Source: a virus
Virus record (IMG/VR): IMGVR_UViG_3300001450_000099
Location: 1 to 37,792 of that record
DNA: 37,792 nt
Direction: 5' to 3' (one strand)
The notes beneath the pieces are model-generated. The model did not search any database. It had not been told where the DNA came from and worked only from the letters and a program-made list of their open reading frames with translations. The number at the start of each line of letters is the position of its first letter. Within the stretch, counting starts at the first letter, position 1. Position numbers and translations under genes: made by a program. Positions 341 through 31,390 of this stretch are shown one piece after another.

Positions 341-3300
341 TTATTTTTTTGATTTTTTAGTATTAAGACCTAGTCTATTAGAAAATATATATTCATTCCC
401 TTCAGGATCTTTCCATTTGACTTCTTCTCCTTCTACTTCAATTTTATTTTGATTTACTTTACCTCCATAATCGTAACCCAAAGGAATCCCCCCACCTTCG
501 TGAGTTGGTCCTTTATAAGTAACTGTATTTTCAGTATCTCCTCCCATACCATATTGCGTATATCCTCCATTTTTTTTATTTCTAAATTCCAGTATTTCTT
601 CATCTGTTAGTTCGCCCAAAGCTTTTGCAGATTTTAAATTTTCTTTTTGTTTATTATTTTTCTTTGTTCTTAGTTTATCTAATCCTTTATTTACAGCAAA
701 ATTAGTTAAAAATCCAGGGACACTTCCCATTAATGCTCCGATTCCTATATCTCTTGTTTTTTCTTTTCCAAAATTTCCCTGAGAACTTTCATGAAAATCT
801 AAATACTCATCAAAAGATAATTGCTTATTAGGATCTGCCCAACTACTTCCCATTGCATTTCTATTTGCAATATAACTGTCATATTGTTGTTGGTATTCTG
901 GCATATATTTATTTTGATAATTTAAAGCCACTTTTCCTGCTCCAATGCCTGCTCCTATACCTGTTGTTGCTAATGCTGTCATTCTTTTATCAAAAGAAGT
1001 TCTATCTCCTTTATAAGGTTTTCCTGTATAATACTGATATTGTTCTGATCTATTAAGAGGTTTTACTCCTAATGACATATCAGCACTGCCCATACCTGTT
1101 TTAAACTCTTCTTTAGTAAATGGGGGATCTGTAGGACCGCCATTATCATATCTTCTGTGTCCGCCATGCCCATACATATTAGAAACAGTATCTACAGCAG
1201 CATTTAAATTTGCATAAGGATTTACTATTGTTCTTTCGGGAGTATCATTTTCTATTTCTTTAACTTCATTTGCAGAAACTTTTTCTGGATAATATTCTTC
1301 AATATCAACATCATTCCAAGTAGAATACATATTTCTTAAATCTAATAAACCAGTCTCTTTGTCTTTATGAGTATCAAAAATCTTTTTATACTGCTTATAG
1401 TTTTTTACGGATTTTGGATCTCCACCTCTAAATGAAAAATGATGATGTGGAGCGTATCCTTCTCTATTGGTTTCATCTTTGTAAAAAACATTATTAGCTT
1501 TTGCCCATTTTTTACCAGCATCAGTATCATAAAAATCTACTACAGGATCTCCTATTCTTAAATCTACAGCTCCTGTACTATCTGTTTCAGCTGCCATTAA
1601 ATGGTCAGAATTTGGGTCGCCTTTTACAGCTACGTTACCTTTTTTAGTTCTTTTAGTACTTGTTATTTGGGCATCTTTCTCAGGATCAAAACCAAATTCT
1701 CCTAGTGACTGTAATCCAATAAATGTATTTAAATTTACGTAAGGATTTTCAGCTACATCATCTCCTTTCCAATTTTTAGCTAATTTACTTTTCTTTAATC
1801 CTAGTATAAAATCTCTTTTTTTATCTTCTTCTCCTTCTGGTCCACCATACGCCATGGCCATTCTGCGAGGCCCACCATAAGCCATACCCATACCTCCTAA
1901 GAAATTAGCGCCTCCTTGAAATAATTTTTGCCCAAAACCTGAATTTTGAAAGTTTTGTACTCCAGGATCATTCATAAATTGCTTTAAACCTTCAGGATTA
2001 TTTTGTATGAATTGTTGTATTTGACTTCCCATATCAGTATCCTTTGTAAATGCTCCTAGCTTACTCAAAAATCCTCCTGAATTGTTCGCATCAAAGCCTG
2101 CTTGATTTAAAAAGTTTCCTGTACCATTATTTCCAGTGTTATTTCCAGTGTTACCTTGACCTTGTGAAAATATATCCATAAATCCGTTTCCTTGGCCCCC
2201 ACCTGATTCGATTGGAGTTCCTTGAGACATTCCTCCATCTATACCCGATGTGTCAAAATTACCTAAACCACCACTAGTAGCGCCTCCGAACATATCTCCG
2301 CCTCCTCCCATTCCTCCTAAAAATTCTTGTCCAAAAGCTTTAAAAGCATCTCCACCTGTTGTTGCGGGAACTACTTTTTTACTTCCATCTTCATTAAATA
2401 ATTCAGGATTTTTTGCTTTATTTTGTTCGAAATTTATTACATTATCTGCATCTGAAGCATTTTTATCAAATCCATCGTTGGCTTTACTATCTTCCCCCAT
2501 TAAATTGTCCCCAGGTAAGACACTATTCACAAATGTTCTCATTCCTCCACCTTCACCATCTGAATTTTGTACTCCTTTTATTCCCCCTTTAACTAAATCA
2601 CCTAAAAAATTAAAACCCCCCATGTTAAATTTGTTTGAAGTAGCTACTTCTTCAACGTTTGCTTTGGGTCCGTAAAATGGATTAGGAGAAATATTAAAAT
2701 TATGAGTTCCTTGATTGTAAGTTTGTTGTGTATTACTTCCTATGACTTCTCCTCCTGCATTTCTACTAGGAGTTGTTTTAAATCCTGCAGGATTTTGAAA
2801 AGTATTATTTATAGCAACATTATCTCCCTCACTTCTTAATTCATTATATAGATTATATGGATTATTACTTGTATAATTAGATTTAACACTTGTTCCTATT
2901 TCAGGTTTTGTATTTAAACTATTTAAATAACTTGGATTACCTTGATTTCTTATAAAATCTATTTCTTCAGGCGGAGGCGTAAATCCTCCATGAGCTCTTT
3001 TAAGAGGTTTTAATTCTTTATCAAATCCCATTACATTACTAGAGTCTGGAACAGCTAATCCACTACTAACAGAATCTGTAAATGGGTCAATAAAAGGAGG
3101 CGGAGTTCCAGGAGTTACTACCCTCTCATTTTGCTGTCTATCATCAAGTGTAGATTCATATGTTCCAGTTCGACTATTCCATATCTTACTTCCTCTATCT
3201 ACTGCCTTAGTATTTAATTCTATATCTGTTGTAGGAGACTCTCCGCTAGCTACTGGATTAGTAGGATTTACTATAGGAGGAGCAATGAAATTCATATTAA

Positions 3301-3607
3301 ATGCCTGATGTCTCGGCCCAAAAACTCCATAAGGATTATTACTTTTTCCTCTCATTTCTTTTGGACTTTGTAACTGAGGAAACTTAGCGCCATATTGATT
3401 ATAAACTTTTTCTAGTTCAGATAAAGTATTATAATATTCTGGAGATAATTCAAAAACTTCTTCTTGTGACAGAGTTTTGTTTTGACTTAATAAAGGAGCC
3501 TGTGCTTTTTGAAATCTTGATTGTAAATTTTCTAACTTTACTCTGTCTTTCAAATTAAGGTTTCCTACATTTTTTCCACTTAAACTAAATAAAACTGGGT
3601 CTGGCAT
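341..3607 (-). CDS. Large virion cargo protein with divergent M15-type peptidase motifs
   Basis: 1088 residues, directly downstream of the muzzle gene, where crAss-like phages encode a large cargo protein ejected with the DNA. Residues 1-560 are N-, G- and Q-rich and probably disordered. Around 630-740 lies a set of motifs resembling a zinc D,D- or L,D-peptidase of family M15: SDHL with H669, AVDL with D682, and an HHH-F-S-F cluster at 721-726, the layout expected for two metal-binding histidines and an aspartate. The H-to-D spacing is longer than in the usual HxxGxAxD motif. Later there are glycine-rich hydrophobic stretches (TTGIGAGIGAGKVAL; IGIGALMGSVPGF) that could enter membranes. Y-x-GG-P type motifs recur at 575-590, 820-829 and the C-terminus. 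Inference: a virion peptidoglycan hydrolase acting during genome entry. The peptidase call is by motif only. Confidence 0.75.
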   Translation of the reverse strand: MPDPVLFSLSGKNVGNLNLKDRVKLENLQSRFQKAQAPLLSQNKTLSQEEVFELSPEYYNTLSELEKVYNQYGAKFPQLQSPKEMRGKSNNPYGVFGPRHQAFNMNFIAPPIVNPTNPVASGESPTTDIELNTKAVDRGSKIWNSRTGTYESTLDDRQQNERVVTPGTPPPFIDPFTDSVSSGLAVPDSSNVMGFDKELKPLKRAHGGFTPPPEEIDFIRNQGNPSYLNSLNTKPEIGTSVKSNYTSNNPYNLYNELRSEGDNVAINNTFQNPAGFKTTPSRNAGGEVIGSNTQQTYNQGTHNFNISPNPFYGPKANVEEVATSNKFNMGGFNFLGDLVKGGIKGVQNSDGEGGGMRTFVNSVLPGDNLMGEDSKANDGFDKNASDADNVINFEQNKAKNPELFNEDGSKKVVPATTGGDAFKAFGQEFLGGMGGGGDMFGGATSGGLGNFDTSGIDGGMSQGTPIESGGGQGNGFMDIFSQGQGNTGNNTGNNGTGNFLNQAGFDANNSGGFLSKLGAFTKDTDMGSQIQQFIQNNPEGLKQFMNDPGVQNFQNSGFGQKLFQGGANFLGGMGMAYGGPRRMAMAYGGPEGEEDKKRDFILGLKKSKLAKNWKGDDVAENPYVNLNTFIGLQSLGEFGFDPEKDAQITSTKRTKKGNVAVKGDPNSDHLMAAETDSTGAVDLRIGDPVVDFYDTDAGKKWAKANNVFYKDETNREGYAPHHHFSFRGGDPKSVKNYKQYKKIFDTHKDKETGLLDLRNMYSTWNDVDIEEYYPEKVSANEVKEIENDTPERTIVNPYANLNAAVDTVSNMYGHGGHRRYDNGGPTDPPFTKEEFKTGMGSADMSLGVKPLNRSEQYQYYTGKPYKGDRTSFDKRMTALATTGIGAGIGAGKVALNYQNKYMPEYQQQYDSYIANRNAMGSSWADPNKQLSFDEYLDFHESSQGNFGKEKTRDIGIGALMGSVPGFLTNFAVNKGLDKLRTKKNNKQKENLKSAKALGELTDEEILEFRNKKNGGYTQYGMGGDTENTVTYKGPTHEGGGIPLGYDYGGKVNQNKIEVEGEEVKWKDPEGNEYIFSNRLGLNTKKSKK

Positions 3608-3658: not shown

Positions 3659-6600
3659 CTACCCATTAGTAGGTGTGGAATGCAGTATTATATCATGTAA
3701 AACTAATCTTTTATCGTTTTGGTTTAACATTTTTAATCTTAAGAATACATAAGCATTTCTAAGACGAGCTCCTTCTTGGTCCCTTGGTAAGGATATTCTC
3801 CATTTTCTCATTCTTCTTTTAATATTATCATTTACTACTAAAGGTATTAATCCAGTACGTTGATAATCATTCCAAAGTTCCATACCAGTTATAGTAGATT
3901 CGAATTGATCTACATCATTAATACTAACTTCAGAATCTATTTCTAGATTATGAAATACTGTAGCATAATCTGCTGTGGGATTTAATATAAGAGTAATTTC
4001 AGAATCAAATGCTTTATCATAAAATTTTCCCCAATCACCTTTGTTATGTTCCCATATTTCAGTAGAAGCATCATAGTTTTCGGATAGTAATCTTCTTCCT
4101 GTATCAAAATAAATTCTTGGTTTGTAGTCTAAAAAGGACTCAAAGCCTTGAATTAATTCATTTATAGAAATAGTTAATCCGTTTTGGAATAAATCTTCTC
4201 CATCTTTTCCTATTAATCGAACCCATCTTGGATCAACATCGGGATTTATAACGGGATCTCCTGTTACAATTATTTCGGATGCTTCATAATGAGGAGGAAA
4301 TGAAGTACCAAAAGTAATTACATCTCCTGGATAGTATTGTGTATTAGGTTGTATTTCTAATATTTTTTTAGAATTTAAAAAAGTCATTAAAACTCTTTGA
4401 TTTCTAATATCATAAGTTCCGTGCACCCCATATGAACCAGGGCTCAGTCTAGTTAAAGTTTTATCTCCTGTATTCATATAACCATCTAGAGTAGGAAAAT
4501 AAGAAGACATTCCTTTAATATCAGAAAAAGCAGACACTCCGCTTGCTCCTCCTAACATGTATATTTTTTTATTTAAATCATCCCAATACATAACAGTACT
4601 TCCCGTATTTACAACACTATGTTGGTGTATTGTTCCTGATATGTTACTTATATACTTGTATTGATTTATAACTTGCCCTGTTCCTAATACTAAATCAGCA
4701 CCTCCAGTTGTTTGTAAAGCTCTTTCATCTATAGGCAAACTTCCACTTGCAGAATCTTGAAAAAATATTACATTACCTTGAAAGTTTATCATTTTATTTA
4801 TAGGACCATGAACTCCTTCTACTTCTGTAGTATTAGCTGGTAAGAAATTTGACCAACTATCAGTTAGCTCGCCATCTACTTTTTTCTCGGATACTTTAAT
4901 TTGATGAGAGTGTTCTTCAGAGTAATTAGCTATAGCGTCTTTTGCGAGATACCAATCTTGAGCATTATTTTCCTGCATAACAAGACTTAATAAATCTAAA
5001 TCTTGATTTAGCATTGTTTGCATTCTTGTCCAATTATCAGTCCATCTATCAGCTGCCCAATGTTTTTTAGCTCTTAATTCATTATTAACAGGAGTTTCGC
5101 ATGGAAAAGTTATTGCTGTTCCAGATGCTCCTGGTTCTTTCCATAAGCCATCGCTAGATGCTCCAATACTTTGTTTAGGAAAAGAAGTATTAGTTTCTTG
5201 AGATTCAGATATTGCAGGAGGTAAATACTCATCATCATAATAATTTACATAGATATCTCCACCAAAGACTTTAAATGTTTTTGTGGTTGTTGATTTTTCT
5301 CCTATAACTTGAAAATTACCTGTAGATTGATATATACTTAATTGTCTATTGGCATAATCTGCTCCTCCATATTGATTAGGTAAAAATCTATCGTAAGATA
5401 CTACTTTAAAATAGTTCCAGTATTCTCCGTATTTTCCACCTAACTTTTTAACTAGTCCTGGAATAAATGGAGAAGGTATATTATTTTTATGTACTTCTGC
5501 TCTTTGTACAGCATCTGTATAAAATCCTGGAGATACGGAAACGGAACGTCCATAATTATACCACTCATACCCAAAATATTTCATCTCTTCTGACCCCCAC
5601 CACCAGTCAGAATTATCAGCTGTTTCATTTAACATTAGAATATGTTTCTTTGCTCCAAAAGTCATTATATCATCCCTAGAATTAATTCCTGATGGCCCAT
5701 AATTAGTGCCTATATTTATAGTTGGCCCAGTATTACCAATCCAATTGCCGCTCGATGGAACATAATTAGGAGAATTAAAATCCCAAGCAGTAGAGCCAAA
5801 AAATTGACCTTGACCATTAGCAGAAGATATTTTTTGAAATTCAACAGAACCTAAAGTTTGTTCTGCTCTTATTCTTAAACATCCTGTTAAAGGGAAAAAT
5901 TTACCAGTAAAGCCAACGTCTTGAAATGAATCCAGGGAAGAATTTAACCAAGGATTAGTTATTCCAATAAAATGTTTACACATATAATAATCAGAGTGCC
6001 TCATAATATTAGCTCCTGTACCTATAGGCCAAGAATTATCATTGGTAGTACCACTTACAATATTTTCACTACAAGAAGGAAGTGCTGCAAAATATCCTAT
6101 AGTTTTTAAATGATCATTTACTCTAAAACTATAATTAGGGTCCATAAGTTTTAGGGGACTATGTAATGTACAAAGAGAACGTTTTCTTCTCTCAGCCCCT
6201 TCTCGCCCAGTTATTGCAATACCAGGAACATCCGCAGGTCTTATCCAACTATTAAAATATGAAGCATCTTGTTGTATAGTATCTCCTTGAAAATTAAAGG
6301 TAGAATTTGATGCTGCTCTTGCTATTCCATATTGTCTTTCCCATCCCGATCTAAGAATTTGGTAATTATCATCTTGGGGACCGACCCCTCCAGGAAAACT
6401 TCGATAATCTTCCCAAAGAGTCATTACTCCTGTACCTAATCTAGTTTTATCAGTTTCTCTTCGTTCTACTCTAACTATTTCAAAACCACTTATTTGACTT
6501 TTAATAGAGCTGATATCTATTGTAAATTCTATTCCTAATTGATTACAATTAACCCAACCATAAGTGGGGCTTGATGTTACTGCTTTAGTTAATTCAAAAC

Positions 6601-8716
6601 CTTCGTCATACCTTTCGGGAAATTTAATATCTCCTATCCAAATAACATAGCTAGGATTTCCTTTTAAATCTCTAAATGTAATTCCAAATCTATATACTTC
6701 TCCTGCTGAATATCCTGTGAATAGTGCTTGCACAAAAGGAGAAGCCATATTTTGCCAATTTTCTCCTATACCTACTGGATATGTTATTGCATTATTATTT
6801 TTATCTTCTTCGCCTAAAGTTACTTCTTGTCCTAAAGTGTAATTAAAGGTTCCTGCAAATGTATTACGCTTGATATCGTTAGTGCCATTATATTTAGTGT
6901 CATTATTAATATCAGCATCTGGAGTAGTATTCATTACGTAAGTTCCTCCTACACCTGCACTACTTCTTACTTCCGAACCATGTACGGTCCATTGATTACC
7001 AAATGCAGTATTACCAACTGTTTCGTGTGTTGTGAATTTATAAGATACATTAGGCCCTGTACCTCCTAAAACATTAGTACCTGGTTGAAATTTATATTGA
7101 TCATCTGTATACCAATTATTATTTAAAGCGGGATCTGTTTGATTATAAGGATTTATTGCATCTGCATTTTCAGGAATTGTATTCCAATTACTTGTATTGT
7201 ATTGTGACTCAAAGCCTGTAGCATCTTCTAAGGTAAAAGCTACTTCATTTTCTTTACTTCTATATGCCCTCGCATCATATTCTATTTCAAATCTTTTTTC
7301 TTTGATATTTCCTGCTAATAGCCTATCAAATTTATAGGTAATTGTTTTAGCATAAAATCCGCCTTTTAATTGATTAAATTCAAATGCAGTTAATAATAAA
7401 GTTTCAAGTTCAGTTCCGTCATAAGTAACTGTAAGACTTCCGCTTGTAGGCACAAATTGTTCTTTGAATTTTATTATAGTAGGAACATTTAAAGTTCCCC
7501 AATAAACTACAATATGTTCTATTACTTCAAATCCAGGATCTATATTATTTACTTCCCAAGTTATTGACCTAGCAGCTGTTGAATTTCCCGATGTATCGCC
7601 TCTAAACACGTCAGCGATAGGAACTCCTGAAAAACCATCTAAAGAAGCATTATAAGCACCTGCTGTTGCGTTTTGCGAATTTACTTGTGTAAGCACTACA
7701 GGCCTAGATAACGGAGACATTACAGTCTCATTTCCTGTTGTTCCATTTAATAGCCTATAACCATATTGTACAACACTTCCAACTTTAACAGTGCCTACGC
7801 CTATAGATTGTGTTATAGGTTGATTTAATTTCGTATTAGGTATTAAGTTTAATAATCCAGGATCTGTGGTAAATAGATTAGGGTCTGCTATATTAATTTT
7901 ACTTATTTCATTGTAATAATCTGTAAAATAAACTCTTTGTAAAGTATCGCTTTCGTATCTACCTATAGGATTATCCATTCTGTGGGCAGTAGATAAATTA
8001 AATTTATTATTATAGATAAGATGTTTAGAAGGAATTAATTCATTAGTAGACGAATTTATATCTATTACTTTATCTGTATATTCATCATACTTGATAATCC
8101 AAACTTGACTAGCAGATCCTGTAGGAGTTTCCGAAGTTTCATTAGTAGTAAACAATATAATCTTATCTCGTATATGAGTTGCACCATTGAGTTTTAAATT
8201 TTCTTGTTCTGCGACTACTTCTTCTATTATTAAATCTGTTCCAGTAATATTAACTGTTAAACTGCTATCTAATCCAACTATGTATACCCACTCAGAACCA
8301 TCAGATAAATAAATATTAAAATACCCTAATGCTATTTGACTTTGTATAGTACTTTGGTCTATTAAAAAATCATAGATATTTAAATTTGTTAGCGGAGCGT
8401 TTGGCCACGACACGGAAGGGTAAGGTAGAGTTATTGTGGTTGTTCCTGTTGGTATTCCCCAAGTAATAGTTATACTATTTTGAGAAGTTGCGGGATCAAT
8501 TGTTAAGTCTTTTCTACTTATTCTATAAATGTTTTGAGTAGTTGGGAATTTAAAAGAAAGTATAGTTCCTTTCTCCGTTTCTACTGCTGTAGTAGATTCT
8601 CCTCCTTGAGTAACTACTTTTATATTTTTAGCATTGTTATACTTATTATTAGGCAGTTTATTATTAGATATGTCTTTGTCCATACCTCCTATATATGTAT
8701 TCTTGCTGGCGCTCAT
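3659..8716 (-). CDS. Tail muzzle / stabilization protein (crAss-like, P22 gp10-like role)
   Basis: 1685 residues. The N-terminus, with GMDKDISNNKLPNN near residue 11 followed by YNNAKNIKVVTQGG, is the typical start of the very large tail stabilization (muzzle) proteins of crAss-like phages. These cap the tail tube and fill the role of P22 gp10. The body is beta-rich, poor in charged helices and has no membrane segment or signal peptide. The start ATG overlaps the previous stop by one base (TAATG), indicating coupling to the ring protein gene. The neighbours, ring protein upstream and cargo protein downstream, match the order in this phage group. No enzymatic motif was recognised. Family assignment is firm by context and N-terminal pattern, but the exact structural role is inferred from relatives. 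Confidence 0.85.
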   Translation of the reverse strand: MSASKNTYIGGMDKDISNNKLPNNKYNNAKNIKVVTQGGESTTAVETEKGTILSFKFPTTQNIYRISRKDLTIDPATSQNSITITWGIPTGTTTITLPYPSVSWPNAPLTNLNIYDFLIDQSTIQSQIALGYFNIYLSDGSEWVYIVGLDSSLTVNITGTDLIIEEVVAEQENLKLNGATHIRDKIILFTTNETSETPTGSASQVWIIKYDEYTDKVIDINSSTNELIPSKHLIYNNKFNLSTAHRMDNPIGRYESDTLQRVYFTDYYNEISKINIADPNLFTTDPGLLNLIPNTKLNQPITQSIGVGTVKVGSVVQYGYRLLNGTTGNETVMSPLSRPVVLTQVNSQNATAGAYNASLDGFSGVPIADVFRGDTSGNSTAARSITWEVNNIDPGFEVIEHIVVYWGTLNVPTIIKFKEQFVPTSGSLTVTYDGTELETLLLTAFEFNQLKGGFYAKTITYKFDRLLAGNIKEKRFEIEYDARAYRSKENEVAFTLEDATGFESQYNTSNWNTIPENADAINPYNQTDPALNNNWYTDDQYKFQPGTNVLGGTGPNVSYKFTTHETVGNTAFGNQWTVHGSEVRSSAGVGGTYVMNTTPDADINNDTKYNGTNDIKRNTFAGTFNYTLGQEVTLGEEDKNNNAITYPVGIGENWQNMASPFVQALFTGYSAGEVYRFGITFRDLKGNPSYVIWIGDIKFPERYDEGFELTKAVTSSPTYGWVNCNQLGIEFTIDISSIKSQISGFEIVRVERRETDKTRLGTGVMTLWEDYRSFPGGVGPQDDNYQILRSGWERQYGIARAASNSTFNFQGDTIQQDASYFNSWIRPADVPGIAITGREGAERRKRSLCTLHSPLKLMDPNYSFRVNDHLKTIGYFAALPSCSENIVSGTTNDNSWPIGTGANIMRHSDYYMCKHFIGITNPWLNSSLDSFQDVGFTGKFFPLTGCLRIRAEQTLGSVEFQKISSANGQGQFFGSTAWDFNSPNYVPSSGNWIGNTGPTINIGTNYGPSGINSRDDIMTFGAKKHILMLNETADNSDWWWGSEEMKYFGYEWYNYGRSVSVSPGFYTDAVQRAEVHKNNIPSPFIPGLVKKLGGKYGEYWNYFKVVSYDRFLPNQYGGADYANRQLSIYQSTGNFQVIGEKSTTTKTFKVFGGDIYVNYYDDEYLPPAISESQETNTSFPKQSIGASSDGLWKEPGASGTAITFPCETPVNNELRAKKHWAADRWTDNWTRMQTMLNQDLDLLSLVMQENNAQDWYLAKDAIANYSEEHSHQIKVSEKKVDGELTDSWSNFLPANTTEVEGVHGPINKMINFQGNVIFFQDSASGSLPIDERALQTTGGADLVLGTGQVINQYKYISNISGTIHQHSVVNTGSTVMYWDDLNKKIYMLGGASGVSAFSDIKGMSSYFPTLDGYMNTGDKTLTRLSPGSYGVHGTYDIRNQRVLMTFLNSKKILEIQPNTQYYPGDVITFGTSFPPHYEASEIIVTGDPVINPDVDPRWVRLIGKDGEDLFQNGLTISINELIQGFESFLDYKPRIYFDTGRRLLSENYDASTEIWEHNKGDWGKFYDKAFDSEITLILNPTADYATVFHNLEIDSEVSINDVDQFESTITGMELWNDYQRTGLIPLVVNDNIKRRMRKWRISLPRDQEGARLRNAYVFLRLKMLNQNDKRLVLHDIILHSTPTNG

Positions 8717-11446: not shown

Positions 11447-11644
11447 TTACTTACCTTTTTTTAATGCTTTTCCTACATGTTCTACACTATTACCTATTGC
11501 ATAAGAACCAAATACCCAAATTATAAAATTTGACCATCCAGCAAAGTCACATTTATTTAAAAATAAAAATACTGTTACTGCTATAAATAATAACAATGCA
11601 AAAGTCGTCTTACGACCTCCGCAAAAATCAAATAATTTTCCCAT
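11447..11644 (-). CDS. Two-TM holin-like protein
   Basis: 65 residues. The start has a short cationic segment with GGRK, then TM1 (TTFALLLFIAVTVFLFL), a short turn with NKCDFAGW, TM2 (SNFIIWVFGSYAIGNSV) and a basic tail KALKKGK. Size, two-helix hairpin and a lysine-rich end are typical of class II holins. It lies between the endolysin gene (TAATG overlap upstream) and the spanin-like gene, which strongly supports a role in membrane permeabilisation at lysis. Holin families cannot be named more closely from sequence alone. Confidence 0.75.
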   Translation of the reverse strand: MGKLFDFCGGRKTTFALLLFIAVTVFLFLNKCDFAGWSNFIIWVFGSYAIGNSVEHVGKALKKGK

Positions 11645-12246
11645 TATAATAAATCTTTTTCGTTAATTAGTGTGTAGGTGAAACTATTTCCCCACAACTC
11701 TGCAGCTTTTTTTACAATATCCATGTGAACTTCGTATTCATCTGGATCTTGTATTACTTGACAGCCTGCAGAATACTTATCTACTGTCTCAAGTTCGTAA
11801 TCAGCATGTGCTCTATGTATATTGATGCCGAACATACCTGTATTTTCTGTGCCAGAAATTTCATCATATTCTCTATCTCGATTATTATCACGATATACGG
11901 TAACGGGCTCTAATCTTTGGCATAAGGCATCGTACTTAGAGTTATGCTTATCTACAGAATATGTAGACTTATATTGTCCTTCTTTTAAAATAGCACAACC
12001 TAGAGGATTAGAAGGATTAGCCAACCAATAAACTCCAGGTAATGTTGTGCACTGCATTTTGTAAATATTCCAATTTCCTTCGTATTTCCAAAAAATACAG
12101 ATTAAATCATTAAATTCATTTACTATAGGATTTGTGGCTCTAATTCCTACTATGTTTAAATTATAAGGCGTTTTATCGCTTTTATAAACAGCGTGCCCTA
12201 ATCTATTCATAGCACTAATAATATCTAATCTAGCTACATCCCGCAT
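11644..12246 (-). CDS. Endolysin-like protein with H...SxGC cysteine motif
   Basis: 200 residues without signal peptide, between a TM coiled-coil gene and the holin gene. The C-terminal half has GINIHRAH with H144 and YSAGCQVI with S159, G161 and C162. This H...SxGC pattern is the one seen in L,D-transpeptidase-like (YkuD-type) catalytic sites and in a phage endolysin family. D167 and D169 and an aromatic C-terminal strand (SFTYTLI) follow. The likely role is cutting or remodelling host peptidoglycan at lysis, reaching the wall through the holin. Both ends overlap neighbours by one base (TAATG), which suggests translational coupling. Cleavage specificity cannot be predicted. Confidence 0.68.
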   Translation of the reverse strand: MRDVARLDIISAMNRLGHAVYKSDKTPYNLNIVGIRATNPIVNEFNDLICIFWKYEGNWNIYKMQCTTLPGVYWLANPSNPLGCAILKEGQYKSTYSVDKHNSKYDALCQRLEPVTVYRDNNRDREYDEISGTENTGMFGINIHRAHADYELETVDKYSAGCQVIQDPDEYEVHMDIVKKAAELWGNSFTYTLINEKDLL

Positions 12247-25030: not shown

Positions 25031-28000
25031 TTACCTCATTCCTGCCTTTCTTCTTTCCTTCTGCTCTTCCCTCCTTCTTTTCCACTTTTTGTTTGCCTCT
25101 TTTTTTTCTTCTGGCGTCTTCTTTTCCCAATTTTTTCTATTTGTTTCAATCAGGCGATCTTGCATATTGCCGCTTCTTGACTCTCCAAAAATAATCCCTG
25201 CTGCTATTCCTCCCCCACCAATTCCAAGTACTCCTGCTTTAAATAATACTTCTCTAAATTCTTTCTTTACTCTTTTTTCTGTATAGTGATATTGATTTAA
25301 CAAATCTTTTATTCTTTTTATTTCTTCACTAGATTGAAAATTTGCTGACGATAATTCATGTTCAATATTACGTGTATCGTCCTTCAAATCAGATATATTT
25401 CTATAAAAAGAATCGTATTCTTCTAAATTTAATATAGGACGAATAGCGTTTTTTATACTAGAACTTTCTGCATAAGAAAATAAATCTTTATTTACACTAG
25501 AAAAAGTTCCAGGACCAAGTTTAGTAGGATCAAAGTCTCTTCCTATGTTTGTAGGTTTTAGAATCTTAGTTAATTTTATTCTATCTTTATTTAAAATTAA
25601 TCTTTCCGAAGCTTTAGCTATTTCGCTTTCTCTACCATAAGTATAATCTTTTTGCATTCCGTATCCATCCCAGTAATTTCTTAATATAAAATTTCCTAGT
25701 CCTCTGTTATAATTATACGCTAATCCTTCTGGAGATCCTGCTCTTAAAAAATCGGCTTGATCTTTGTTTTTTATAAATTTATTTACTTCAGAAGATGATT
25801 CAATGTCGAAAGCCTGATTACTACTATTAATATTTACAATTGATTTCTTTGCTTTTTCCCAGTTTTTAAGAGTTTCTACCATTCCTTTCTTTACTCCCGA
25901 AGAAATTGATTTATCTGCTTCTATATTTTTTATAATACTAGCATAATCATTTTTAGGTAATTGACTCTTGGCATAAGGAATTTTTTGTTTCATAAATCCT
26001 AGAGCACTTATACCTGTTAAATTATCTAGTTCGGGAGAATGAATTTCTATACTTCCATACGTACCTTTGTTCCCTGCAAATCTTGATAGTATTGTATCTG
26101 GATTATTTTCCCCTGTAACTTGTCCAAATTGATCTGTCATCCCTGAATTACTTGAGTAATTGCCTGGGCCAAGTTGTCCTCCTCCTATAACATCTTGTAA
26201 TGCTTGTATTTGTTGTTCATCATTCATAGATATAGTTGCATCTCCATGTGTTCCCCTAACACTTCTTTTCCATTCACTTTTATATCTATTAATAAGCTCA
26301 TCATTTGTTAAAGCATTTCTTAAACTTTCTACATTTTCTAGTAATAAAGCCTTTCGTTCTTTTTTGTTAAAGTTTCTTAAGTCTATTATATTTTCTGCTT
26401 GACCTATAAAGCTTTCCCTTTCAGTATTCTTTGTAAATCTTTTTAAGTACCCATTTTTTAATAAAAATCCTGTAAACTCTGGATATTCTTTAGCTGTCTG
26501 TAAATAAGTAGGGTCTATTTCTCCATAAATTTGAGCCTCTGCTTCAGAAATAAGATCTCTAATATCCTCAGTTTCCTTAATTGCATTATTAGTAAATTCT
26601 TTTAGATTATTTTCTAGGTCTATTATTTCTTGCTTATTTTTTTGAACATTCTTATTATTAATTGTTCCTTTAAATGATAGTATGTCTTTTAAAGTAGGTT
26701 CTTTTATTTCAGGTAATTGAGTATTACTTGTAGAAAATAGATTACTTATTTTTGCTCTATTTTTTTCTTGCGTATCATTAGCCCTTTCTATATCTTTTAC
26801 TATAGGATTATTTTTATTTAAATCTTTCCATTCCCCACTAGCATCATCATAAAATTCAAGATCTAAAGACCTTTCGGAATTACCCTTATTTTTATCTTTT
26901 CTAGTTAAAGGATCATTTTTAAATCTAAAAGCAGTTTGTCTTTGATCGTCATATGCATTTTGAGTAAAATCTGAAGTCCAAGATCCTTTTGAATATTTCT
27001 GATACATTTCGTCTAAGGTTTCAGTAGGAAGTTCTAAAAATAAATCTGGATTATTTCCTTCAGCTTCTAGCTCTGCCATATTATTTTTTATCCAATCAGA
27101 TTTAGATAGTATAAATCCGTATTCTTTAAGTTGTTTTATATCATCCGCAGTCTTTAATTCAAAATTATCATAAAGTTCAGTAGCACCACTATAATCAAAA
27201 AATCCAGTAGCGGTAGTATTTGTTTTAGAATTTATTCTATTTATATTAGTCTTATCTCCATCATAATTAAAACCTTTTACTCCATATTTTTTTATTTTAT
27301 TTAAATTATGTGGAATACTTCCTATATTAAAATATTGATATTCAGATTTAGGAGCTTCTATTTTATTATCTATAATATGTTTAAAGATAGATTTTTGTCC
27401 TGCCTTATAATCAAATACAGGTTCTTCTGCGTTTGCATCTGTTGTCCATTTCCCTGGCCGAACAAAAGCTTTTTGTTTAGTATGTGAATTTGTTAATTTT
27501 TCTAACTCCCGCCCTGGTGTTCCTAAAGCCTTATAGTTTAAATTTATATTTCCTCTATATAAATCTACAGGATATCCTAGTTTTCTGAGTTCATCATGTA
27601 TATAAATATTTTCTGCATGATTCACACTTTTATTTATTATATCTTGTTTAAATTCATTTATCTCTAATCCTAACTTTTGCTTCATTTTTAAAAAGTAGTT
27701 TCCGTATGACTGTATATCTTCCTTATTTTCTATTTTTTGATTTAAAAAATCACTCCTAGTTTTTAGATCGTGTGCTTGGGTTAACATTTCTCCTCGCCCC
27801 CCTTTCATAAACCTTTCCCCTTCTCCTATCTCCGCCTCAATTCCTTCTTTTATTTCACTAAGAGATATATCATCTAAACTTTTATTTTTATTGTACTGTT
27901 CTACTAGTTTAATCCCTAAACCCTGTCCACTATAAGTTTTATCATTTATATCACTATATATTCTTTTATCTTTTACCCAATCTTTAGTTTCTTCTAGTAG

Positions 28001-31000
28001 TTTTTTCTTGTTTAAATTATAATCAATACTTTTCTGGATAAACTCTTTATCTCCAGATAAATATGGTTTATCTTTTATTATATCAGATAAAGGCTTAGTA
28101 AAATTATTTTCTATATTATTTAAACTACTATTATATTTAGTAGAAGAGTCAATATAATTAGTTTTTGGTTTCTTAGCTGTACGTTTTCCTTTTTTTCCTC
28201 TTCCTAGTAATCCGAATAAACCTGCTGCGGTAGCTTCTCCATCTCCATCATTTAAATAATCGTAAAGAAAAGCTCCTGTAGAGCCTGCCCCTACTAATGA
28301 GCTTTTTAGATTTCCATAATTAAATTCATTTTTTGTAGTAGCTTTTGATTTTTTTACAGGTTGAGATATTGTTAAGTCTAAATCAAAACCTTTTGTTCCT
28401 TTTCCATAATCACTTTTTACATTATATAATCCTTGATTTCCTAATAAAATTTCATTTTCTAATACATATCTATTATAAGGACTAAGTTGAGGACTATTAT
28501 AATGAAGTATATTTTGCCCTGGCTTAAGTCCTATTTGCATTGTGGTTTCTCCAAATAAACTTTTTCCTTGATCTCCCATTGCTGTTGTTTGTGGAGTTAT
28601 GTCTTCTAATCCTTTTCCTTTACTTGTAGACATAAAAGGTTGATCTGCTCTAAATCTCATCCCTTCTTTTAAATCTGAAGTCCACATTGGTGATGAATTT
28701 ATATCAAAACCTTTTCCTTGTCCTTTTGGAGTGTAAACTGTTCCAGGTTGTAACATATAATCATTAAATCTTCTGCCTACAGACAGAGGTTCGACTAAGC
28801 TTGTTTTTCCAATTGCTCCTGTTAATTTTTGGGCCATCGGGTTAAATATGGCAGGACCTTGATTTAGACTGTATAAAGATCCTAAAACATTATTCATTGG
28901 CTTATTAAATCCATGATTATATAATCCCGCAGCTGTTAATTGTTGTGGAGTATATTCAGTATTTAGTAATCCTTGTTGTTGGTTAAATGCCTTTTCATCT
29001 GCTAATGCCATTTTTCTATAAGGTTCTTCCCTTTTAAAATTTTTCATAGCAATAGTCCGTCCTTTTATTAAAGATTTATTATAAGGATGTGCAAAATATG
29101 CTTCTGGATGTTGCATTTGTAATTGCGAATTAATAAAATGTTCATATGCTATTCCCGATCCGTGTTGATTTTCTAGAGCTTTTTGCGCTTCTTGAAACTC
29201 CGTAAGTGGATATTTTTGCATTAAGTCCCTTGTAGCATTTACAACTACTTCTTCACTTAGTCCTGGAAATTCATAAATTTGATTTTGTAATAATTGATCA
29301 ATTTCCTGGTTACCTGTATTCCAAGATGGCTTAGGCATATAACCATCATAAACTAATGGTTCTTCTTCAAGCGGGACTTTGGTTTTAACTTCTTTATTTT
29401 TTACTTGTTCTGCAACTTTAGGATCTATTTTAATAGGAGAACCTTGAGTAAGATTTGCCATGTAGTTTTTATACCCTATAGATTGTTGTGTTGGGGAGGC
29501 TGCTTGTTCAAATACTTCTTTACTCTGATCTCCGAAAATAGGTTTATAATTGCTTTTGCCTCCTGTGATTTGGCCCATAGCTTCTGGCGTAAAGAATGGA
29601 TTTCCTTCGTTTTGTTTTCTTATGTCAAAGTTTTTTCCTTTGCTTACTATTTCTTGAGTTGCTTTATTGGCATCATAAACTCCCGATCTAGGTCCTAATG
29701 TTAGGCTTCCCTCTCCTATATTAAATTTAGCAGCATTATTTTTAAGTCCAGGTAATAAATTTCCTAAGAAGGTAGGTTCTGAAACTAATTCTTGCCATTT
29801 TAATGTCTTATCTGCTGTAGTAGCATTAGGATTTTGTTCTGCCCACTTTTCAAACATATCCTTTTCTACTCCATATTCTTTTTTAGGAGTAATCCCCTTA
29901 ATTCTGTCTGACCATCTAGACTGCCAGCTAGGATCTACATATTGACTAGGCTTAGAAATTTTACTACTTAAATCATATGTTAAATCTTCTCCACTTTTTA
30001 CTTTTTGATATTGTTTCAGTGCTCTACTTCCTTTTCCAAAAACTCCTTTTGCTCCTAATGCTGTGAATCCAAGGTTAAGGTAATCCATTCCTGTAGGTTT
30101 TTCTATACCCATTGCCCCTCTTAAAGATTCGGAGTCATCTGATAATCCTGTTAATAAGTGCGCACCAGCATTTACTCCTGATGGAAGTATATGGGTCCAC
30201 ATGTCAATTTCAGGCGCTATGGATGCTAGTTTTGGAATTACACTTGTAGAAGATGTTCCTGCAAATGGTATTAAATTCCAAGGATTAAAGGCACGTTGGC
30301 CAGCTTGTCCCGCCTCAAATATTTGTTGATTACTTGCATTTCTTAAACTAGGATCTACTCCAATTCCAGCATAATCAAAAGGATTTACTAAAGCGTCCCA
30401 TCCCATTTTTCTTAAGGTAGCATCGTCTGGCTTTGCTCTATTTTGAATGAATTTTTGATTTTGAGTAACTGCTTTGTCTACATAATTACCCATATATTTT
30501 TGGGCTAATTCTTGCTGTTGATTTTCAGCATCTTGTCGTAAATTATTTACTACATTATCTGGCAAATTTTCGTTTAAATAATTCCAATAATCCTCGGTTC
30601 CTATAGATGTAGCTTTATTAATTTTTTCAGCTACGTTACTAAAATCTTGACTTCCTGCTCCTTCTATATTTTTATATTGATTTGCGTCTAAAGCATTTGT
30701 TGTAACTTTTTCTTGTAATCCAAAATCTACATCAGGAGGAAGTATACGGTCATTTACTTTACTAGCATCGACATAGTTTTCCCATTTTTGAAGATTATCT
30801 TTAGATTTACTTTGTACTAATTTTTTAGCATTTTGTTCTGATAATGAATTAGCATTCTGCATAACATCTTGCACAGCCGTTGTGTATGCATTTTGAAACA
30901 TCTCAGTAATTCGAGGATCATTTTGTATAGACTTTTTAACTTTTTCTAAATATAAGTTTTCTAACTCATCTTGTTGTGTATATTTATTTCTATTAAAAAC

Positions 31001-31390
31001 ATCAAAATCATAATTATAAAAAGGATCATTTACTTCTTGTAGTGCTAAGTTATATGCTTCTTCTTGTATTTTTTTTATTACTGCATTATATTCAGCAAAC
31101 TCAGGACGATTATAAAAATCTTTCTTTTTATTTGGAGGATCTATTAAACCACCATCTTTGAACTTTGGTACATCTCCTGGCATGAATCCAGTGTGGTGTT
31201 TTCTGTCTTGATAAGCTTTTCCTACTATACGTTGGGGTGCTTTTGTTTTTATTAGCCCCCCTTGAGCATATTCTTCTACAGGCTCTACTGGTCCTTCTTT
31301 TTGTAGTTTTCTTAAGAAAGAAGTACGAGACCCTTTGTAACCTTTAGCTTTAAGATCACGAAATATTTCGAGTTTTTCAGAAGGAGTCAT
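25031..31390 (-). CDS. Giant virion-associated protein with ADP-ribosyltransferase-like segment
   Basis: 2119 residues between portal and scaffold. The N-terminal region has YAQGGLIKTKAP (41-52) and FKDGGLIDPP (77-86), motif types shared with the cargo protein. Residues about 865-1005 resemble an ADP-ribosyltransferase exotoxin domain: arginines 873-874, DLKEGMRFRADQPFMSTSKG with S921-T922-S923, and LENEILLGNQGLY with E978-x-E980, at spacings normal for R-S-ExE enzymes. The position where VYRG is usual reads GTVYTPKG, so the catalytic arginine is uncertain. A second segment has VDLYRG (R1279) and GKWTTD (T1316-T1317). Hydrophobic glycine-rich stretches occur near 1000-1050 and at about 2052-2071, followed by a very basic tail. 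It is probably packaged and injected. Catalysis is unproven. Confidence 0.78.
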   Translation of the reverse strand: MTPSEKLEIFRDLKAKGYKGSRTSFLRKLQKEGPVEPVEEYAQGGLIKTKAPQRIVGKAYQDRKHHTGFMPGDVPKFKDGGLIDPPNKKKDFYNRPEFAEYNAVIKKIQEEAYNLALQEVNDPFYNYDFDVFNRNKYTQQDELENLYLEKVKKSIQNDPRITEMFQNAYTTAVQDVMQNANSLSEQNAKKLVQSKSKDNLQKWENYVDASKVNDRILPPDVDFGLQEKVTTNALDANQYKNIEGAGSQDFSNVAEKINKATSIGTEDYWNYLNENLPDNVVNNLRQDAENQQQELAQKYMGNYVDKAVTQNQKFIQNRAKPDDATLRKMGWDALVNPFDYAGIGVDPSLRNASNQQIFEAGQAGQRAFNPWNLIPFAGTSSTSVIPKLASIAPEIDMWTHILPSGVNAGAHLLTGLSDDSESLRGAMGIEKPTGMDYLNLGFTALGAKGVFGKGSRALKQYQKVKSGEDLTYDLSSKISKPSQYVDPSWQSRWSDRIKGITPKKEYGVEKDMFEKWAEQNPNATTADKTLKWQELVSEPTFLGNLLPGLKNNAAKFNIGEGSLTLGPRSGVYDANKATQEIVSKGKNFDIRKQNEGNPFFTPEAMGQITGGKSNYKPIFGDQSKEVFEQAASPTQQSIGYKNYMANLTQGSPIKIDPKVAEQVKNKEVKTKVPLEEEPLVYDGYMPKPSWNTGNQEIDQLLQNQIYEFPGLSEEVVVNATRDLMQKYPLTEFQEAQKALENQHGSGIAYEHFINSQLQMQHPEAYFAHPYNKSLIKGRTIAMKNFKREEPYRKMALADEKAFNQQQGLLNTEYTPQQLTAAGLYNHGFNKPMNNVLGSLYSLNQGPAIFNPMAQKLTGAIGKTSLVEPLSVGRRFNDYMLQPGTVYTPKGQGKGFDINSSPMWTSDLKEGMRFRADQPFMSTSKGKGLEDITPQTTAMGDQGKSLFGETTMQIGLKPGQNILHYNSPQLSPYNRYVLENEILLGNQGLYNVKSDYGKGTKGFDLDLTISQPVKKSKATTKNEFNYGNLKSSLVGAGSTGAFLYDYLNDGDGEATAAGLFGLLGRGKKGKRTAKKPKTNYIDSSTKYNSSLNNIENNFTKPLSDIIKDKPYLSGDKEFIQKSIDYNLNKKKLLEETKDWVKDKRIYSDINDKTYSGQGLGIKLVEQYNKNKSLDDISLSEIKEGIEAEIGEGERFMKGGRGEMLTQAHDLKTRSDFLNQKIENKEDIQSYGNYFLKMKQKLGLEINEFKQDIINKSVNHAENIYIHDELRKLGYPVDLYRGNINLNYKALGTPGRELEKLTNSHTKQKAFVRPGKWTTDANAEEPVFDYKAGQKSIFKHIIDNKIEAPKSEYQYFNIGSIPHNLNKIKKYGVKGFNYDGDKTNINRINSKTNTTATGFFDYSGATELYDNFELKTADDIKQLKEYGFILSKSDWIKNNMAELEAEGNNPDLFLELPTETLDEMYQKYSKGSWTSDFTQNAYDDQRQTAFRFKNDPLTRKDKNKGNSERSLDLEFYDDASGEWKDLNKNNPIVKDIERANDTQEKNRAKISNLFSTSNTQLPEIKEPTLKDILSFKGTINNKNVQKNKQEIIDLENNLKEFTNNAIKETEDIRDLISEAEAQIYGEIDPTYLQTAKEYPEFTGFLLKNGYLKRFTKNTERESFIGQAENIIDLRNFNKKERKALLLENVESLRNALTNDELINRYKSEWKRSVRGTHGDATISMNDEQQIQALQDVIGGGQLGPGNYSSNSGMTDQFGQVTGENNPDTILSRFAGNKGTYGSIEIHSPELDNLTGISALGFMKQKIPYAKSQLPKNDYASIIKNIEADKSISSGVKKGMVETLKNWEKAKKSIVNINSSNQAFDIESSSEVNKFIKNKDQADFLRAGSPEGLAYNYNRGLGNFILRNYWDGYGMQKDYTYGRESEIAKASERLILNKDRIKLTKILKPTNIGRDFDPTKLGPGTFSSVNKDLFSYAESSSIKNAIRPILNLEEYDSFYRNISDLKDDTRNIEHELSSANFQSSEEIKRIKDLLNQYHYTEKRVKKEFREVLFKAGVLGIGGGGIAAGIIFGESRSGNMQDRLIETNRKNWEKKTPEEKKEANKKWKRRREEQKERRKAGMR

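Follow-up and report, generated by a model that had tools for sequence, protein, structure and literature searches.

The putative cargo gene and its muzzle neighbor

The window, by which we mean the whole 37.8-kb virus record that was analyzed, carries a crassvirus-type structural module on the minus strand. The following features of this module surround the domain under study:

341 to 3607, minus strand: putative C1-type cargo protein P0001, 1,088 amino acids; open reading frame next after the muzzle gene, with a C-terminal crAss_CARG1 match (E 0.0057) below the cut-off
3659 to 8716, minus strand: muzzle protein gene, 1,685 amino acids (PF25731, E 1.4e-124; PF25729, E 8e-11)
356 to 547, minus strand: crAss_CARG1-like region, residues 1021 to 1084 (PF25725 as the best match, E 0.0057)
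692 to 979, minus strand: two hydrophobic glycine-rich segments, residues 877 to 895 and 954 to 972 (hydropathy 1.15 and 1.47)

Based on the crAss_CARG1 signature at its C terminus and the position of its gene directly after the muzzle gene, as in phicrAss001 (muzzle gp44, C1 gp45), we take the 341-to-3607 protein to be the C1 cargo protein, the counterpart of gp45. When its last 99 residues are scanned alone, PF25725 is the top match, at 17.2 bits against a cut-off of 27 (E 0.0057), and the equivalent region of the C1 protein from locus L011 matches the same family at E 0.0086. The L011 protein aligns with the window protein over both the N- and the C-terminal parts (phmmer E 1.6e-27), and a C-terminal motif is common to the window protein, L011, L012, L014, and L017. 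A Pfam scan places CARG1 of gp45 at residues 424 to 555, which coincides with the segment of residues 425 to 552 that is bound to the portal of phicrAss001 (PMC10172136). In that phage, mass spectrometry found C1 and C2 in the virions, gp45 was resolved in both capsid and tail, and gp45 was proposed to be the first protein ejected (PMC10172136). The original prediction had put the gene right after the muzzle gene, in the usual slot for cargo. The first point is borne out by the identity of 3659 to 8716 as a crassvirus muzzle, and the cargo slot is well supported by this neighbor together with the C-terminal signature. The window protein resembles gp45 in gene position, in its portal-bound-type region, and in its glycine-rich hydrophobic segments, which are possibly membrane-inserting parts. 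It differs from gp45 in that its CARG1 match is weak (E 0.006) and in that gp45 has no recognizable peptidoglycan hydrolase by Pfam scan, nor is one named in PMC10172136.

The M15-like domain and its homolog

Residues 600 to 780 of C1 are flanked by MAYGGPRRMAMAYGG and MYGHGGHRRYDNGG and contain 25% G, N, Q, S, and P, compared with 45% in the stretch before them, a difference in composition that sets off a candidate domain with the following features, all on the minus strand:

1355 to 1810: folded island, residues 600 to 751, with an M15-like core at about residues 620 to 730; homologous to a C1 domain of L012 (phmmer E 7e-11)
1838 to 1888: left linker GMAYGGPRRMAMAYGGP bounding the domain; an equivalent AYGG linker lies at the L012/L017 swap boundary
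1136 to 1177: right linker MYGHGGHRRYDNGG bounding the domain
1649 to 1651: R653 of ITSTKR, which lines up with ITSxxR, a conserved motif of M15_3 endolysins
1601 to 1603: H669 (in SDH), proposed first metal ligand; in alignments it matches the leading His of the L012 motif SKHNVGKAFD and of the endolysin motif SQHxxGxAxD
1562 to 1582: alternative Asp ligands D676 (1582 to 1580) and D682 (1564 to 1562), from MAFFT versus the Pfam M15_3 alignment
1472 to 1477: D711-E712 of VFYKDET (VKYLDET in L012), candidate catalytic acid from the alignment
1439 to 1447: H721-H722-H723 of APHHHFSF, where the last metal ligand is expected; APHHHF is identical in L012

All of the residues named in the original prediction (H669, D682, and H721-H722-H723) are present, and its interval of 1388 to 1720 corresponds to residues 630 to 740 of the 341-to-3607 protein.

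Family searches point to M15 at scores below the family thresholds. Peptidase_M15_3 is the best Pfam match of a 181-residue fragment (E 0.13) and the second match of a shorter one (E 0.09); its alignment falls on the first metal motif and scores 12.8 to 13.4 bits against a cut-off of 23.2. When M15_3 is searched over the six frames of the window, this domain is the sole match (E 0.002). The single Pfam match of the L012 domain is M15_4, with 13.6 bits against a cut-off of 25 (E 0.1, or E 0.0016 when only the L012 genome is searched). M15 models come first or second in Pfam for both real domains, versus no Pfam match at E ≤ 1 for ten shuffles of both. The endolysin family phrog_894 aligns weakly with the window domain (E 0.09), and hhalign against the M15 endolysins of crassvirus relatives gives E 0.0045 at a probability of 8% on the right motif, versus E 0.2 for a GH24 control. 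Searches of Pfam, NCBIfam, phages, and PDB sequences returned no match above the cut-off for the window domain, and its weak PDB sequence matches are unrelated proteins. A profile of the relatives' M15 endolysins did not single out the C1 domain; because endolysin profiles fail to recover it, we rejected the idea that the domain was recently copied from the M15 endolysin of the same phage.

Among 78 loci of relatives collected for comparison by muzzle alignment, homologs of the domain were confined to two contigs, L012 and L013, whose C1 proteins give the same match. The L012 domain reads SKHNVGKAFD ... TDQGKKW ... VKYLDET ... GTAPHHHFEF, which is the classical SxHxxGxAxD followed by the His motif PHHHF. 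The window domain is 40% identical to it and keeps SxH, TDAGKKW, YKDET, and APHHHF, which demonstrates homology to a domain with the classical motif. A chance motif is ruled out by the alignment score (167, versus a mean of 34 and a maximum of 63 for shuffled sequences; z 22.7), by the occurrence of the classical motif with a His motif C-terminal to it in 14 of 4,425 open reading frames of relatives, as against zero across 20 shuffled sets, and by the failure of shuffled domains to match Pfam. Pattern scans for the domain in viral and bacterial genomes found nothing beyond the L012/L013 pair, and a motif scan of bacterial genomes found two M15-like proteins, neither of which was matched by the domain profile.

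AlphaFold models of the window domain and of the L012 domain, each built on a two-sequence alignment, have pLDDT values of 42 to 43. An alignment enlarged with endolysins was left out of the folding because its C-terminal half was mis-aligned. With these low-confidence models, Foldseek retrieved no structure of the M15 (hedgehog/DD-peptidase) fold and no other PDB match; APHHHF is a strand in both of them, and the conservation of APHHHF in both homologs is as expected for the His motif in the C-terminal strand of M15. We consider it quite improbable that the domain has another metal-binding fold in which H, D, and HHH are merely M15-like. Such a fold would be consistent with the low pLDDT values and with the lack of matches above the cut-off in Pfam, NCBIfam, and PDB sequences, but it would leave unexplained the full SxHxxGxAxD in the homolog, the independent matches of two homologs to M15 models at the metal motif, and the replacement of the domain by a lysozyme in the same slot (described below).

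For the divergent M15 peptidase that we favor, the choice of Asp ligand depends on how the first metal motif is aligned. This motif reads SDHLMAAETDSTGAVD in the window domain, and, compared with the classical SxHxxGxAxD, it offers an Asp at +7 without the G or A or an Asp at +13 in a GAVD context. The Pfam M15_3 alignment, which fits 38 residues to 32 profile positions by means of a 6-residue insert, favors D682, whereas MAFFT places D676 at the Asp position. Since these aligners disagree, the ligand may be D676 rather than D682. The original description of the first motif as longer than the classical one consequently holds if D682 is the ligand and fails if D676 is, because D676 (H669-LMAAET-D676) has the classical +7 spacing. 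An insert at this position is possible, since the virus of L012 encodes a stand-alone M15_3 endolysin (L012:6480-6962), a confident member of the family (E 2.6e-16), whose first metal motif SQHMANNGAAMD (HMANNGAAMD) has a 2-residue insert.

Phage M15_C enzymes have a catalytic Asp at position −3 relative to the last His (PMC10487532). The window domain has no acid there (the −3 residues for H721, H722, and H723 are Y718, A719, and P720, respectively), and neither does the L012 domain. The M15_3 endolysins of relatives likewise have no conserved acid at −3 and keep an invariant Glu upstream; D711-E712, which is conserved in L012, is a candidate substitute for the catalytic acid. The missing acid and the lengthened or degenerate first motif are what would be seen in an M15-derived pseudoenzyme, no longer catalytic in this phage but still able to fold or to bind peptidoglycan. 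The fact that the window motif deviates from HxxGxAxD and the L012 motif does not is in keeping with such a loss, as is the C1 protein of L011, the nearest relative by muzzle, in which C1 searches found no recognizable enzyme and because of which the domain is taken to be dispensable in some lineages. However, the −3 acid is missing in L012 too, where the rest of the motif is retained, and the genuine L012 endolysin also has an insert. Furthermore, the candidate ligands, DET, TSxxR, and PHHHF are all retained at 40% overall identity, as would occur under selection. We therefore regard loss of catalysis as unlikely.

Predicted enzyme modules in the cargo genes of relatives

Over their first 825 bases, the C1 genes of L012 and L017 share 86.5% DNA identity. 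The value is 88.6% from 1545 to 1623 and 77.3% from 2271 onward, and the gap between 1632 and 2270 shows no DNA similarity. This gap holds the M15 domain in L012 and a GH24 lysozyme in L017, L014, and L016 (PF00959; L014, E 6.5e-5, above the cut-off; L016, E 2.9e-3; L017, E 3.3e-4), and the boundaries of the swap are AYGG linkers. This demonstrates an exchange of domains within C1. That two different enzymes, both predicted to act on peptidoglycan, take turns in a single slot is the best, though indirect, functional evidence available, and the M15-type identity originally proposed for the domain gains support from this M15-to-GH24 exchange at the same position and from the classical-motif homolog in L012. 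The C1 protein of bajarodcaudo virus 1 carries a tail lysozyme (PF18013, E 7e-7). Overall, 42 C1 candidates yielded 23 CARG1 matches and few enzyme matches, and an enzyme is not present in every C1 protein.

The original prediction also set the domain apart from an endolysin at 11644 to 12246 on the minus strand. The distinction holds because 11644 to 12246 is a gene of its own, has endolysin-like PHROG matches (phrog_33083, E 9e-16; phrog_3000, E 2e-29), and lacks an M15 motif. Its product carries an H...SAGC resembling the L,D-transpeptidase (YkuD) motif; it had no Pfam match and no match to phicrAss001 gp30. Alternatively, the C1 domain could act late, as a second endolysin or a lysis-stage modifier of peptidoglycan whose fusion to C1 is incidental. 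M15 enzymes are common among phage endolysins, and relatives have stand-alone M15 endolysins. Nevertheless, the domain is embedded in C1 beside the muzzle gene and outside any lysis cassette, a distinct endolysin-like gene is present, and relatives that have a stand-alone M15 endolysin keep M15 or GH24 in C1 as well, all of which makes a late role highly unlikely.

Other genes near the muzzle gene carry further enzyme-like motifs. In seven relatives (L056, L069, L083, L128, L129, L130, and L142), the gene after C1 encodes a C-terminal M15/VanY-like domain with FHxxGQAxD, with EWWH motifs in the three that were aligned and a PF02557 match in L083 (E 3.7e-4); this domain of a second cargo gene belongs to a family separate from that of the window domain. 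The CARG1-bearing C1 protein of phi14:2 (gp81; L002:23639-25417), annotated as structural by tandem mass spectrometry (MS/MS), has two HExxH motifs, THEFTH and AHEFIH, whose surrounding regions are possibly metalloprotease domains carried in the virion. Giant open reading frames of 1,787 to 3,016 amino acids follow the muzzle gene in L043, L050, L063, L075, L084, and L088 and contain at least one HExxH (e.g., LPHEYYHAWQ and VHELTHK); the HExxH regions of those in L043 and L050 had no Pfam match. The L012 C1 protein also has a segment, IKPENRGKFT...ATRKQANFARNASKW (query residues about 260 to 337), that is 41 to 61% identical to C1-like and other gut crassvirus proteins outside CARG1 and is possibly another packaging or DNA-binding module.

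Proposed role at entry and relation to known systems

The M15 type of the domain and its cargo slot are well supported, and a function at entry is plausible but unproven. A peptidoglycan hydrolase used at entry would best explain the combination, and the simplest reading is that C1 is a modular carrier of such enzymes. We think it likely that C1 carries a divergent M15-type metallopeptidase that is ejected and cuts peptidoglycan at entry, and that this domain is an exchangeable module. By analogy with phicrAss001 C1 (PMC10172136) and with the MS/MS annotation of phi14:2 gp81, the 341-to-3607 protein is probably present in the virion. We infer the following mechanism, including where C1 lies in the virion of this phage, when it acts, how it binds metal, its catalysis, and its substrate. 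C1 would be packaged at the portal and the tail and would be expected to come out first, exiting the tail in a partly unfolded state and then refolding in the periplasm, as for T7 gp16. Metal would be bound via H669, D676 or D682, and one of H721 to H723. The module, situated between flexible xYGG linkers in a slot occupied by a GH24 lysozyme in relatives, would cleave peptide bonds of peptidoglycan, allowing the DNA and polymerase conduit to cross the cell wall; the wall would thus be cut ahead of the DNA and the virion RNA polymerase.

Ejected peptidoglycan hydrolases are already known. The N-terminal lytic transglycosylase of T7 gp16 is presumed to breach the wall; this module can move between ejection proteins (PMC8954989). 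The window C1, if it is ejected, would resemble gp16 as an ejected internal protein that bears a peptidoglycan hydrolase module; the enzyme class and the carrier are different, and muramidase and peptidase modules alternate in crassvirus C1. The C1 protein of bajarodcaudo virus 1 likewise has a peptidoglycan hydrolase module within a CARG1-bearing C1, but the module is a lysozyme rather than a peptidase and is located just before CARG1. With phage M15 endolysins (Ply500, EndoT5, and EndoRB49; PF08291, PF13539, MEROPS M15), the window domain shares the order SxH ... D ... His, an upstream ITSxxR, and then helix-strand-strand (in low-confidence models), and its L012 homolog has SxHxxGxAxD. It differs from them in its altered first motif, in lacking an Asp at −3 relative to the last His, in its location inside a large presumed virion protein, and in scoring below the family cut-off. 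What is new is the placement of an M15-like peptidase inside the cargo protein of a crassvirus. In the literature searched, we found no report of M15 in such a protein and no paper joining Crassvirales, cargo protein, and peptidoglycan; the cryo-electron microscopy atlas (PMC10172136) and a 2023 Crassvirales review cover cargo ejection and do not mention peptidoglycan.

The domain and its lysozyme alternative suggest how these abundant phages may pass peptidoglycan. If our reading is correct, C1 equips at least some crassvirus lineages with a wall-cutting enzyme, which would help to account for a highly variable C1 beside a conserved muzzle, and the natural swap of peptidase and lysozyme offers a direct test of a wall-cutting role for C1. 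A broader proposal, on which we are evenly divided, is that the cargo proteins of crassviruses serve generally as a modular delivery chassis, in which CARG1 portal docking and xYGG linkers would be combined with interchangeable enzymes (M15 peptidase, GH24 lysozyme, tail lysozyme, and HExxH metalloprotease-like domains) that are delivered first through the tail and open the periplasm according to host lineage.

A separate observation concerns the 2,119-amino-acid open reading frame at 25031 to 31390. Its residues 874 to 983 (28442 to 28771, minus strand) had no Pfam match and, as a reading of motifs only, contain RF..., FMSTSK, and ENEIL, arranged as in an R-S-E ADP-ribosyltransferase. The same protein has xGG linkers near its N terminus (31145 to 31267).
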